Assembly (NCBI GenBank): GCA_039680605.1
Contig: JBDKTA010000021.1
Span: forward strand, 1-64,000
Direction: 5' to 3'
DNA: 64,000 nucleotides
DNA from: Planctomycetaceae bacterium
Lineage (GTDB): Bacteria; Planctomycetota; Phycisphaerae; SM23-33
Shown: positions 5,443 through 53,945 of the stretch, in pieces
Layout: every line of letters starts with the position of its first letter
How positions within the stretch are numbered: the first letter of the stretch is position 1
Notes under the pieces: generated by a model
What the model saw: only the letters and a program-made list of their open reading frames with translations
What the model was told of the DNA's origin: nothing
The model's database searches: none
Position numbers and translations under genes: made by a program

Positions 5443-6058
5443 CGACCGCCAGGCCCTGGCCAACCGCCAGCGCCTCGACGCGCTGAAACTCACGGGCGTC
5501 AACGTGCTGGCCTCGCCCGGGGCGGGCAAGACCAGCGTCATCGTCGCGGCGCTGCAGGGGCTCGACGGCCTGACCCGCGGCGTGATCGAGGGCGACGTGG
5601 CCTCGTCGATCGACACCGACCGCATCCGCGGCCTGGGGTTCCCCGCCGTGCAGATCAACACCGCCGGCGGCTGTCATCTCACCGCCGACATGGTCCGCCA
5701 GGCGCTGGACGAACTGGGTCTGCAGGGACCGGGCATCCTCTTCATCGAGAACATCGGCAACCTCATCTGCCCGGCGTCGTTCGACCTGGGCGAGCACGTG
5801 CGGCTGGTGATCGCCAGCGTCGCAGAGGGCGACGACAAACCCACCAAGTATCCGCTGGTCTTCACCCTGGCCGACGCGGTCGTGCTCAACAAGACCGACC
5901 TGGCCGCCCTGACGGAGTTCGACCTGGACCTCTTCCGCACGCGCCTGCGGGCCGTCAACCCCCACGCCCCCCTGTTCGAAGTCTCCTGCCGCACCGGCGA
6001 AAACCTCCCCCTGCTGCGCCAGTGGTTGCTGGACACGCGATGCAAGCAGACCCATTAG
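5402..6058 (+). CDS. hypB: Hydrogenase maturation GTPase HypB
   Basis: HypB (218 aa) is the GTPase that drives nickel insertion with HypA. Visible motifs are the P-loop SPGAGKTS (residues 38-45), EGDVASS, the metal-binding GGCHLT segment, ENIGNLICPASFDLGE with the conserved Cys-Pro-Ala, and the guanine-specificity motif NKTD. There is no N-terminal His-rich nickel-storage stretch, so this is the short form. The start overlaps the end of hypA. The TAG stop at 6056-6058 lies inside the first bases of a TTAGCGGC-type repeat. Confidence 0.95.
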   Translation: MSKIKATEAILSDNDRQALANRQRLDALKLTGVNVLASPGAGKTSVIVAALQGLDGLTRGVIEGDVASSIDTDRIRGLGFPAVQINTAGGCHLTADMVRQALDELGLQGPGILFIENIGNLICPASFDLGEHVRLVIASVAEGDDKPTKYPLVFTLADAVVLNKTDLAALTEFDLDLFRTRLRAVNPHAPLFEVSCRTGENLPLLRQWLLDTRCKQTH

Positions 6059-6128
6059 CGGCGGGGACTCGTGCTGCGCCACTGGGGGTTCAGGGAACCA
6101 ACCGCGCGGAGCAAGCTTCGCCGCTAAC
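6055..6128. repeat. TTAGCGGC-family inverted-repeat element (degraded copy)
   Basis: The left end reads TTAGCGGCGGGGA and the right end GCGGAGCAAGCTTCGCCGCTAAC, the same outer sequence as the elements at 45580-45649 and 53769-53842. The left inner hairpin is disrupted and the right one has one mismatch. The first TAG of the element is the hypB stop codon. Confidence 0.65.
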
Positions 6129-42265: not shown

Positions 42266-43072
42266 TCATTGGAGGGAGGGTAGAACGGGAGTTCTGATAG
42301 CCTGGGCCATCACGTCGGCCAAGTGTGCCTGATCGACATTGCCCACCGCGCAGTAGGTGTATTCCCCCACCCCGCAGGCGAGCATGTTGGTGCCTTTGGC
42401 CGAGCTGCTGCGGGCGGTGCGGCCGTCAATTCGGACCGATCCGCCCATCCCCAGCGTCTCGACCTTGTCAGGAACCACTACCAGCGAGACCGGTCCCTGG
42501 GCCGTCTTGAGCACGAAGCAGCCCACGGCGCGGCCTCGGAACTTCTGGGTGCAGCAGCACGCGACTTCGCCGCCGCCGCAGGGGGCGCTGAGCGAACAAC
42601 CGGTCTTGTCCTTGAGAAATGCCTCCATCTCCTGCGCGTTGCCGCAATGGACATTGCTGCCGCCGTGCGTCATGGCCTGCACGTTCTGGCGGTGGATCTC
42701 CACCAGCGCCGCCTGGGCGGCCGACGCGTCGGCAGGCCAAAGCATCGCCGCGCCCGCCACCACCAGCACCATCGCCGCGGCCGCCAGCGACGCATACCGC
42801 CACAGATGCGGAAAACGCATCACTCGCCGCCCTGGTTCCGTCAGAGGCGGGGCTTGCCCCGCGCATTGCTGGCTCACCCCAACGGTCTGCCTGCGAATCC
42901 GCGCCGCCAGTTCTGCCGGTGCATGCACACCCTCATGCGCCGCCCGCAGCCGCGCCCGCAACGACCGCATTCCCGCCAGCGCCTCGCGGCACTGCGAGCA
43001 TGCGCCGAGGTGCCCGGCATGGGCGGCCTCGTTCAGCAGGGCCTCTTCGAATTGTTCAGCCGTCAGGTGCAT
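42266..43072 (-). CDS. Zinc-type anti-sigma factor with Cys-rich extracytoplasmic domain
   Basis: A 268-aa single-pass membrane protein, partner of the ECF sigma factor whose gene overlaps its start by 10 bp. The cytosolic N-terminus holds the zinc anti-sigma motif H21-x3-C25-x2-C28. The transmembrane helix is at about 94-112. The outer domain (113-268) has nine Cys residues (143, 159, 165, 172-174, 185, 233, 241), suggesting a thiol, redox or metal sensor. Residues 68-78 (QQCAGQAPPLT) are encoded by a copy of the GGGGCTTGCCCC repeat found elsewhere between genes. The signal sensed is unknown. Confidence 0.82.
   Translation of the reverse strand: MHLTAEQFEEALLNEAAHAGHLGACSQCREALAGMRSLRARLRAAHEGVHAPAELAARIRRQTVGVSQQCAGQAPPLTEPGRRVMRFPHLWRYASLAAAAMVLVVAGAAMLWPADASAAQAALVEIHRQNVQAMTHGGSNVHCGNAQEMEAFLKDKTGCSLSAPCGGGEVACCCTQKFRGRAVGCFVLKTAQGPVSLVVVPDKVETLGMGGSVRIDGRTARSSSAKGTNMLACGVGEYTYCAVGNVDQAHLADVMAQAIRTPVLPSLQ
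42841..42866. repeat. TTAGCGGC-family repeat arm inside the anti-sigma gene
   Basis: AGGCGGGGCTTGCCCCGCGC is identical over 19 bases to the arms of the intergenic element at 53769-53842. It lies in frame within the coding sequence, in the linker before the transmembrane helix. Confidence 0.75.
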
Positions 43073-44692: not shown

Positions 44693-45556
44693 ATGCCTTC
44701 CATTGAACATCTGGCGCTCAACGTTCCGGACTCTGCCGCCATGGCCGATTGGTACGTGCGGCATCTGGAGATGCGAATCCTGCGATCCGGCGGGCCGCCG
44801 CATCATGGACGCTTCCTGGCTGATGAAGCGGGGCGGTGCGTGCTGGAACTCTACAGCCGCCCCGACGACGGTATCCCCGACTACGCCGCCCTGCACCCGA
44901 TGACCCTGCACGTGGCCTTCAACTGCCTTGACGTGGCGGCCGCCTTCAAGGCGCTGACCGCCGCCGGTGCGGTCGTCGTGGACGCACCCACCACCGACGC
45001 CGACGGCAACACCTTCGCCATGCTCCGCGACCCGTGGGGCGTGGCCGTCCAACTTGTCCGCCGCGCGAAGAGCCTGCTGCCCGAACTGCCGGTCTGGAAG
45101 CACACCACCTCGTTTCGGTACGACAAGTTCCACACGAAGGAGTGGTACGCCACGTGGTTCGAAAGACTGGCAGCGGATTACGGGCTTGCGCTCGTTGACG
45201 ATAGTGCCCAGACGCGGAACATCTTCACGCCCGAAGACCTGGAAACGGCTTTGCCGGAACTCGGCTCGCCGCAGAGCATCGAGGAGTTGCATCGGCTGGG
45301 CCTGGCGCCGCTGGAGCAGAAGAAGATCGATCAACTCTGCAGGCCCATCACGTTTCGTACGCGGGTCTATCACAGCAAGGGCGGCGTGGTAACGCTCGAA
45401 GTGCGAGCGGCTCAGGGAAACGAGTTTCCCGCCATCGGGATCGAGCTATGGTGGGAAGAAGAGCTGCGCCTGTTCGGCGGGTTCATCGACCTGAAGGTCC
45501 GAGGCGATAGGAAGGTCTTCGATCAAATCAAAACCTTCCTGTCGATACGAGCTTAG
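44693..45556 (+). CDS. VOC (glyoxalase/dioxygenase-fold) protein with a fused C-terminal domain
   Basis: A 287-aa protein. Residues 1-125 form a vicinal-oxygen-chelate module: IEHLALNVPDSAAMADWYVRHLEM, then LELYSRPDD, PMTLHVAFNC and GNTFAMLRDPWGVAVQLVRR. Metal ligands by family would be His6, an H/E in HVAF and Glu/Gln near VQLV. Residues 130-287 are a second domain (KFHTKEWYATWFERLAADYGL...GNEFPAIGIELWWEEELRLFGGFIDL) that I do not recognise. The joint lies in AKSLLPELPVWKH. Substrate unknown. Confidence 0.75.
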   Translation: MPSIEHLALNVPDSAAMADWYVRHLEMRILRSGGPPHHGRFLADEAGRCVLELYSRPDDGIPDYAALHPMTLHVAFNCLDVAAAFKALTAAGAVVVDAPTTDADGNTFAMLRDPWGVAVQLVRRAKSLLPELPVWKHTTSFRYDKFHTKEWYATWFERLAADYGLALVDDSAQTRNIFTPEDLETALPELGSPQSIEELHRLGLAPLEQKKIDQLCRPITFRTRVYHSKGGVVTLEVRAAQGNEFPAIGIELWWEEELRLFGGFIDLKVRGDRKVFDQIKTFLSIRA

Positions 45557-45579
45557 TCGCATTGAGCGATGATGCGGGA

Positions 45580-45649
45580 CCCGTTAGCGGCGGAGCTTGC
45601 TCCGCGCGTTGCGCGCACAACACGTCGAGCAAGCTCGACCGCTAACGGG
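45580..45649. repeat. TTAGCGGC-family inverted repeat with covarying arms
   Basis: Outer ends CCCGTTAGCGG and CCGCTAACGGG are complementary. Each arm also has its own hairpin: GGAGC-TT-GCTCC in the left arm and CGAGC-TT-GCTCG (read on the other strand) in the right arm. A CTCTGTGCCTCTGTGG half arm follows at 45689-45706. Confidence 0.8.
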
Positions 45650-45819
45650 AGTTCGACTTCGCCGCCTCCCGTTCTCACCTCGTCCTGCTCTGTGCCTCTG
45701 TGGTCAATCCTTTCGCGTCAATTTGGACGAATTTAATCTTTGTTCCCACGTATGTTCTTGCATTAAAGAGATTAAGCGGTAAAATTGGTCGCTGTTCACA
45801 ATCATCTGCGGAGGCGCAC

Positions 45820-47115
45820 GTGCCGGACACTGCTTTTCACAGCGATAAACCACTCGATGACTGGCTTTTTGATCTGTACGACCGCATGCTCGGCGAGGTC
45901 AAGTTGCCAGCCGTTCTGGAGGATGTCGCCCGCGCCGTCTGCGAAGACCGCAAGGCCCAGCGCGCGGCGATCTATCTTGTCGACCACGCCACGGCCGAAC
46001 TCAAGTCGGTCGTCACCATCGGCAACGTCGCCCAGATTATTCACGTGCCGATCGACGATCAGTCGCTGGCGGGCTATTGCGCCACGCACCAGAAGGCGTT
46101 CCACGTGCCTGATGCGTATGGCGATCTGTCGGGTATTGCCCCCGGGCTGCATTTTGACGACGCCTGGGACCGGCTCAACAACTTCCGCACGCGCGATGTC
46201 CTGTGCGCCCCGGCCATCTTCAAGAACACGCTGGTGGGCGTGGTGCAGTTGATCAACGGCCAGGAGGGGCACTTCACCCCCGACGACCTGGCGCCGCTGA
46301 AGAACGTCGCGCGGATCATCGGCTACGCCCTCTACCACGCCAGACTCTACGACGACCTGGCCACGATGAGGCGCCTCGAGCACGAGAAGGCCGCCTTCAT
46401 GCGGTTGATGGTGCACGAGCTCAAGAGCCCGGTGGCGGCTGTCAAAATGATGGCCGAGTTGCTGTCTCGCAAGGCCGGCGGCGACGCCCACACCGTCGAG
46501 ATGGCCGCTCGCATCGCCCGCCGCGGCGACCACATGATCCAGCTCATCCAGGACCTGACGGAACTGGCGTACGTCAAGTCCGCCACGACGGCAGGCAAGG
46601 TCGAGGTGCTGGACCTGGTCGAGCAGACGCAGACCGTCGCCGAACACTACCGCGAGCAGGCCCGGGCTAAAAGTCTGGCATTCGAGACGCATCTGCCGCC
46701 CCAGCGCCTGGCCGTTCGCATCGACACCAAGGCTTGTGAACTGATCGTGTCGAACCTCATTTCCAACGCCGTGAAATACACCTCTGCCGGCAGCATCCAG
46801 GTGCGCCTGCGCCGCGAGGACTCCTGGGCGGTGCTGTCGGTGGCCGACACGGGAATGGGCGTCAGCGAGCAGGAGATCCCCAAACTCTTCCAGGAGTTCT
46901 ACCGCGCTGCCAACGCACGCGCCAGCGGCATCGCCGGAACCGGCGTGGGCCTGGCCGGCGCCAAAGCCCTGGCCGAACGCTTCGGCGGAGGAATTGAACT
47001 CCAGACCGCTCTGGGAACTGGCTCGACCTTCACCGTCCGCCTGCCCCTTCAAAACGCCCCCTCGCCCGCGGCAGGAACCTTCATCTCAGAAGCCCCACCC
47101 GTCCCCGCCCAGTGA
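45820..47115 (+). CDS. GAF-domain sensor histidine kinase
   Basis: A 431-aa soluble histidine kinase. The GTG start at 45820 is fixed by GGAGG six bases upstream. A GAF domain spans about 20-180 (LEDVARAVCEDRKAQRAAIYLVD, VLCAPAIFKNTLVGVVQLIN). HisKA follows with FMRLMVHELKSPVAAVKMMAELLS (phospho-acceptor His). The HATPase_c domain has SNLISNAVKYT (N box), DTGMGVSEQEIPKLFQEF (G1/F) and GTGVGLAGAKALAE (G2). No transmembrane helix and no receiver domain; the response regulator is not adjacent. Confidence 0.92.
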   Translation: MPDTAFHSDKPLDDWLFDLYDRMLGEVKLPAVLEDVARAVCEDRKAQRAAIYLVDHATAELKSVVTIGNVAQIIHVPIDDQSLAGYCATHQKAFHVPDAYGDLSGIAPGLHFDDAWDRLNNFRTRDVLCAPAIFKNTLVGVVQLINGQEGHFTPDDLAPLKNVARIIGYALYHARLYDDLATMRRLEHEKAAFMRLMVHELKSPVAAVKMMAELLSRKAGGDAHTVEMAARIARRGDHMIQLIQDLTELAYVKSATTAGKVEVLDLVEQTQTVAEHYREQARAKSLAFETHLPPQRLAVRIDTKACELIVSNLISNAVKYTSAGSIQVRLRREDSWAVLSVADTGMGVSEQEIPKLFQEFYRAANARASGIAGTGVGLAGAKALAERFGGGIELQTALGTGSTFTVRLPLQNAPSPAAGTFISEAPPVPAQ

Positions 47116-53768: not shown

Positions 53769-53842
53769 CGTTAGCGGCGGGGCTTGCCCCGCGCGTGGCA
53801 GGGGACCGGCGCGAAAACGCGGGGCAAGCCCCGCCGCTAACG
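53769..53842. repeat. TTAGCGGC-family element with perfect 25-bp inverted arms
   Basis: Arms 53769-53793 and 53818-53842 are exact reverse complements over 25 bp. Each contains its own GGGGC-TT-GCCCC hairpin. It lies in the divergent gap between the GT4 and nikR genes, followed by a CATGGCGACACGCG...GGGTCGCCATG inverted repeat at 53858-53898, like that at 33467-33501. Confidence 0.88.
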
Positions 53843-53945
53843 GCGCGCAGAACGGGTGGCATGGCGACACGCGACGTTTCTTCAGCGGGTCGCCATGGGC
53901 ACGCAGACCGCTCGCCGTTACAATAGCCTTCCAGAGGAGCGCCCC

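Follow-up and report, generated by a model that had tools for sequence, protein, structure and literature searches.

Compensatory changes in the hairpins of REPINs have been described for Pseudomonas fluorescens SBW25 (text of PMC3116915), and the repetitive extragenic palindromes (REPs) of the GTAG and CGTC super-families, according to the main text of PMC3733652, comprise subfamilies with alternative complementary stem residues that occur as homo- and heterodimers. TnpA-REP recognises the tetranucleotide GTAG, the last two bases of which help to choose the cut site (PMC8266576, main text). The subclasses of REP-associated tyrosine transposases (RAYTs) and their REPs have been catalogued (PMC6006769, main text), and PDB entry 4er8 represents a RAYT bound to a REP hairpin. 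Since compensatory stems are already known for REPs, such a pattern was to be expected in the locus considered here, and it is the tag and the enzyme clade for which no earlier description was found. The word TTAG is absent from the main texts of PMC3733652, PMC6006769 and PMC8266576, and no TTAG-tagged REP was found in the literature searched, which consisted mostly of open-access papers.

The window, i.e., the whole stretch of DNA that was analysed, comprises positions 1–64,000 of contig JBDKTA010000021.1 (assembly GCA_039680605.1, Planctomycetaceae bacterium). It contains two intact dimers, one decayed dimer and one solitary arm of a hairpin family (Table 1), in whose arms (G)TTAG and the dinucleotide CG precede a 6-bp stem with a CTTG loop. 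These hairpins are most probably (at a probability of roughly 0.8) REP/REPIN-type elements spread as single-stranded DNA by a RAYT-type Y1 (HUH-tyrosine) transposase. Taken by itself, the 8-mer of the tag is not a rare word of the window (5 occurrences versus 1.8 expected; 5 of 100 shuffles reach 5). An earlier note on this DNA had ascribed decayed stems to the copy at 6055 and a GGGGC/GCCCC stem to the copy at 42841, and both descriptions hold. Another family of palindromic repeats (GTCGCCATGGG...) apparently adjoins the 53770 element (window positions 53862–53905) and recurs elsewhere in the genome (L090, 14995–15132).

Table 1. Hairpin elements of the window and their arms (positions in the window).
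Feature	Position	Strand	Description
Heterodimeric REPIN-like element	45583..45646		arm type B on +, type C on -; facing arms, GTTAG ends outermost
Left arm of 45583 element	45584..45605	+	tag TTAG, spacer CG, hairpin GCGGAG.CTTG.CTCCGC
Right arm of 45583 element	45624..45645	-	tag TTAG, spacer CG, hairpin GTCGAG.CTTG.CTCGAC
Homodimeric REPIN-like element	53770..53841		arms A + A
Left arm of 53770 element	53771..53792	+	TTAGCG, hairpin GCGGGG.CTTG.CCCCGC
Right arm of 53770 element	53819..53840	-	TTAGCG, hairpin GCGGGG.CTTG.CCCCGC
Decayed dimer	6055..6127		left arm: only tag and 5' stem half left
Right arm of 6055 dimer	6127-6106	-	CGAAG/CTCCG, one mismatch
Solitary arm	42841..42862	+	hairpin GCGGGG.CTTG.CCCCGC intact (42847-42862), tag decayed to TCAGAGG

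For the analysis of covariation, arms were chosen by a full match to TTAGCGG in the tag and to CTTG in the loop, with the stems ignored, in 2,033,633 bases of the 5.23-Mb genome (the window and 100 further tiles), which yielded 91 arms. Perfectly paired stems of only three kinds, CGGGG/CCCCG (type A), CGGAG/CTCCG (type B) and TCGAG/CTCGA (type C), are carried by 74 of them, and the full stem types are all closed by an outer G-C pair; if up to one mismatch in the tag or loop is allowed, the three types count 43, 21 and 20 arms, respectively. The remaining 17 arms include 11 with one-sided changes, three paired variants (two TCGGG/CCCGA and one TCGAA/TTCGA) and three that are not hairpins. Among the 60 distinct rows, 95.3% of the cells are paired (82.3% after shuffling), and the covariation score of 0.414 (shuffled 0.183) is reached by none of 500 shuffles and by no slid register, the highest of which scores 0.110. 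Frequent changes on both sides are found in three of the six stem pairs. Two of the five measures do not clearly exceed the shuffles, namely pairs with two-sided change (4 versus 3.0; 67 of 500 shuffles) and further pair types (8 versus 7.4; 188 of 500), and the shuffle fractions are not probabilities because the rows are related. By reading of the rows, independent paired events inside this genome are few, roughly five. The paired stem differences between copies, which the earlier note had seen in a handful of arms, are thus borne out, with one refinement of its stem types: the third type differs also at the outermost varying pair, where C-G is replaced by T-A.

The family is abundant, as is usual for REPs, i.e., short palindromes repeated many times per genome: the type-A 21-mer with up to three mismatches has 165 matches in the 5.23-Mb genome (2 for the reversed control), and type C with up to two mismatches has 67. 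REP-like placement is also observed, with 68 of the 91 arms intergenic though 83% of the sequence is coding by a rough gene call. Conservation begins sharply at G-TTAG, amounting to 1.53 bits at position -1 and at most 0.34 bits further upstream. Inverted doublets are represented by 25 facing dimers of types A–C in 2.03 Mb (60–111 bp, mostly 60–85 bp), a set drawn from 129 arms, 26 of them of no assignable type; it excludes a single facing pair, in which A is combined with an untyped arm, and all pairs whose arms do not face each other. Arms of different type are combined in 18 of these dimers (shuffle mean 11.8, p 0.008). A strict heterodimer rule was rejected owing to three C-C dimers found genome-wide in the match list, and in the genome of L257 only about half of the listed facing pairs, counted by eye, have mixed stems.

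Selection on the fold could act on each resident copy or only at the moment of copying. The partner arm of each anchor arm was therefore compared whatever its state; a recognisable partner (at most 6 mismatches) was available for 48 of the 91 anchors, and both arms of one dimer could each count. In the partner arms the tag and the 5' stem half have both changed at 0.021 per site, the loop at 0.016 and the 3' stem half at 0.014, and in 288 pairs there are 10 one-sided changes (3 of them of the G.U type) and no paired change, small numbers in both cases. Resident arms thus decay without preference for paired change. When the 3' halves were shuffled within subfamilies, pairing was 0.938 compared with 0.9495 observed, a value reached by 2 of 2000 shuffles; a slight pairing signal persists a little within subfamilies. 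Together, the partner-arm changes and the within-subfamily shuffle indicate that paired change is mainly a trait of subfamily founders, with resident copies decaying freely. As paired changes separate the subfamilies and single copies change mostly on one side, folding seems to be required when an element is copied and not of each resident copy. The earlier note had offered selection for, or copying through, a folded structure. Copying through the fold is the part favoured, by subfamilies defined by paired changes and by the 41 paired inner stems of related hairpins that flank, in other genomes, a transposase clade akin to enzymes that cut hairpins; selection for the fold in resident copies finds no such backing, the stems changing at a rate similar to that of the tag and loop.

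A candidate enzyme is provided by a relative (G047), in which a Y1 gene has TTAGCC hairpins on both sides, including the core GCGGGG.CTTG.CCCCGC. Of the 298 genomes examined in the class, 89 encode homologues of this Y1 protein (E 1e-8 or better). Among 70 loci, TTAG-tagged perfect hairpins lie within 300 bp at 30 of the 50 unnamed loci with at least 45% identity versus 1 of the 20 below; far from the genes the former group has 10 such hairpins in 107.6 kb. Of 287 named loci the best 80 were used; their titles almost all give Planctomycetota or a subordinate group, and they partly overlap with the unnamed 50. TTAG-tagged hairpins lie within 300 bp at 43 of these 80, and in the same 80 loci the tag occurs 122 times in 46.8 kb near the genes versus 5 times in 145.6 kb far from them (69-fold), and the next-ranked tetramers are overlapping ones of the same motif. 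Even if no hairpin is required, a perfect stem of at least 6 bp begins at 119 of the 215 TTAGC[CG] sites in the vicinity (5 after shuffling), with 41 different inner stems. TTAG hairpins are thus linked to one RAYT clade in other Planctomycetota; a perfect one is absent nearby at 20 of the 50 unnamed loci and at 37 of the best 80 named ones. Strand-specific stems were considered for the RAYT flanks and not adopted as a rule. The inner stem is identical in 48 of 55 same-strand pairs versus 33 of 93 opposite-strand pairs of the RAYT flanks, pairs within a locus not being independent, and the trend is reversed at 2 of the 18 loci having both kinds of pair (L262, L286).

In the maximum-likelihood tree of 69 rows, from which L191, L206 and L250 were omitted as short or located at contig edges, two RAYT clades are split by a 100/99 branch (bootstrap not fully settled). 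TTAG rows constitute 28 of 48 in the first clade, without forming one clade within it, and 1 of 21, on a long branch, in the second. In the linked enzyme H104, H106, Y166, N170 and P171 are invariant in 16 of 16 sequences (H-x-H, Y-x-x-x-N-P). Its AlphaFold model (mean pLDDT 81.9) has 4er8 as the top PDB match (E 2.7e-5); with the HUH motif, the catalytic tyrosine accompanied by NP and a predicted Y1 fold, it would qualify as a RAYT. By sequence the enzyme matches Y1 transposases of solved structure weakly, and NCBIfam model NF047646 gives the linked clade 45.3 and 48.4 bits, below the cut-off of 80. A REPtron, in which a RAYT gene has the REP of its own genome on its flanks, is present in related genomes, e.g., at L161 and L250; none was found near the 15 Y1_Tnp hits of the window's genome.

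Two further genomes carry related hairpins. The complete genome of Planctomycetales bacterium ZRK34 (CP050848.1) has two TTAG-clade RAYT loci (L257, L288); a hairpin pattern with the tag TTTAGCC is matched there 51 times, by stems that differ yet remain paired. In G003, a genome of the same family as the window's, locus L029 carries GTAGGGGCGGGGCTTGCCCCG, where the core hairpin is the same but the tag is the canonical GTAG.

The 95%-complete assembly of the window's genome yielded no member of the TTAG-linked RAYT clade. Because the clade is missing there, the window copies are tied to its enzyme by the tag and core shared across genomes, and from this correspondence of sequences we infer that this clade moved them. 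Alternatively, the genome's own sister-clade RAYTs could have moved its elements, the TTAG-linked clade being parallel and not cognate. Three homologues of the RAYT family are indeed present (best 37% identity), and one of them, C43:30839, has a TTAG-preceded hairpin of other sequence about 150 bp upstream; both own-genome RAYTs placed in the tree fall in the sister clade. Nevertheless, no arm lies within 1.5 kb of any of the genome's 15 Y1_Tnp hits (some of these loci end at contig ends), no TTAGCGG arm was found near the three homologues, and TTAG hairpins occur near only 1 of 20 sister-clade loci. Several sister-clade RAYTs elsewhere (L214, L215, L222, L226, L228) are flanked by a different hairpin, roughly GCTAAACCGC.aa.GCGGTTT, so that each clade may have its own palindrome. 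An own-genome RAYT was rejected as the cognate enzyme on these grounds and is an unlikely source of the copies.

Other Y1 sequences of the genome were noted in passing. Loci L334 (G000:C58) and L335 (G000:C50), found by profile, are RAYT remnants, one without the middle and one N-terminal only, which resemble the sister clade by eye; neither locus has a TTAG hairpin. At L018 (G000:C4:17939-21112), a Y1 transposase frame seems to be embedded, in phase, in an EtfB-like gene (EtfB by eye; open frame of 545 aa) and is flanked by translated repeats reading GRDAHAT.

The structure that is maintained could also be sought in RNA, as the earlier note had suggested. On an RNA reading the elements would stop transcription or stabilise messages, and the paired changes would reflect selection on RNA. 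Each of the 25 dimers has a minimum-energy RNA fold lower in energy than the one in which both local hairpins form; for the two dimers of the window this fold is strong (z values of -6.3 and -7.4) and joins one arm to the other, and a few of the one-sided changes described above (3 of 10) are of the G.U type. This energetically preferred fold is not the one that is kept, however: of 180 local stem pairs in the 18 mixed dimers 174 are retained, while positions that face each other in arm-to-arm pairing match in 86 of 180 cases. Since local hairpins are kept and arm-to-arm pairing is not, the maintained structure is the single-arm hairpin, the form bound by a REP-cutting enzyme, and a long RNA hairpin is disfavoured as the conserved structure. 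In addition, an Rfam scan of the window gave no match, no GC-rich hairpin with a trailing T run, the mark of an intrinsic terminator, was detected in 45300–45900, and the orientation of neighbouring genes (15 convergent, 17 divergent, 36 tandem) corresponds to the background (200, 191 and 396), without a bias towards convergent genes. Taken with the free decay of resident stems, these results led to the rejection of an RNA function, which is improbable.

A miniature inverted-repeat element of an ordinary (DDE) insertion sequence, with incidental inner palindromes, is highly improbable. Facing inverted arms in 60–111 bp units do resemble terminal inverted repeats, but the arms of one element often differ in stem while each remains self-paired (18 of 25 dimers), a feature superfluous for terminal repeats that are bound as duplex. 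The related tag goes with a Y1 transposase clade, and the frames enclosed by the two facing arm pairs 1–2 kb apart in the tiles are host-like or unassigned by eye, with no recognisable transposase. Integron attC sites, brought to mind by GTTAG...CTAAC, were set aside, as the core sites presumably have the opposite orientation here and the third purine is missing.

In the preferred reading, spread by a RAYT-type enzyme, the REPs, which often form REPIN-like units of two inverted arms, would be recognised by the Y1 transposase one folded arm at a time, by means of the foot tag TTAG, a short perfect stem and a small loop. The enzyme would cut near the recognised arm, as TnpA-REP does with GTAG hairpins; the role of TTAG as the guide and the cleavage step itself are both deduced. 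Only sequences still able to fold would be copied, so that the source copies that survive would carry compensated changes and give rise to new stem subfamilies, and resident copies would afterwards decay without constraint on the fold. On balance, the TTAG palindromes may well constitute a third super-family of REPs, next to GTAG and CGTC, with a Planctomycetota RAYT clade of its own in which the guide is shifted and the stem is free as long as it pairs, often with two different stems, one per strand; the population in the window would have outlived its enzyme or become separated from it.

Such a system ties stem changes to one enzyme clade, with the tag fixed and 41 inner stems as natural variants, so that one can ask which parts of a REP its transposase reads, and it makes selection at the time of copying separable from selection on resident copies. 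Compared with the SBW25 REPINs, as presented in the text of PMC3116915, the elements are alike in being inverted REP doublets with a spacer (about 71 bp between the conserved 16-mers of a GI doublet versus the 60–111 bp units here), and the cores of their palindromes, GGGGGCTTGCCCCC and GGGAGCTTGCTCCC, are similar to CGGGGCTTGCCCCG and CGGAGCTTGCTCCG of the window family. In contrast, the SBW25 16-mers begin with GTGG, GTGA or GAGG instead of (G)TTAGCGG, and the REPINs of SBW25 lie near specific RAYTs, whereas the search of the window's genome gave no linked RAYT. The GTAG and CGTC super-families of PMC3733652 (main text) share with this family the alternative complementary stems, the homo- and heterodimers and, in many cases, short TY loops, and GTAG-1 and GTAG-2 likewise have two unpaired bases between tag and stem. 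They differ in the foot: the TTAG of the window arms is none of the GTAG super-family feet (GTAG, GYAG, GYRG, GTRG, GTMG, GTGG), and neither these arms nor the RAYT-linked hairpins carry a CGTC super-family foot (CGTC, TGTC, CCTC). By eye, the motifs of the TTAG-linked clade could be matched to no row in the subclass table of PMC6006769. With E. coli TnpA-REP (PDB 4er8; main texts of PMC6006769 and PMC8266576) the linked enzyme shares the Y1 HUH fold and Y-x-x-x-N-P, and in both cases inverted REP pairs, often of more than one subtype, flank the gene. The guide of the E. coli enzyme is GT[AG]G (main texts of PMC8266576 and PMC6006769), while that of the window family and the linked clade would be TTAG; the latter differs from GTAG at the first base and keeps the last two, which bear on the choice of the cleavage site (PMC8266576, main text), and thereby predicts cutting at CT.
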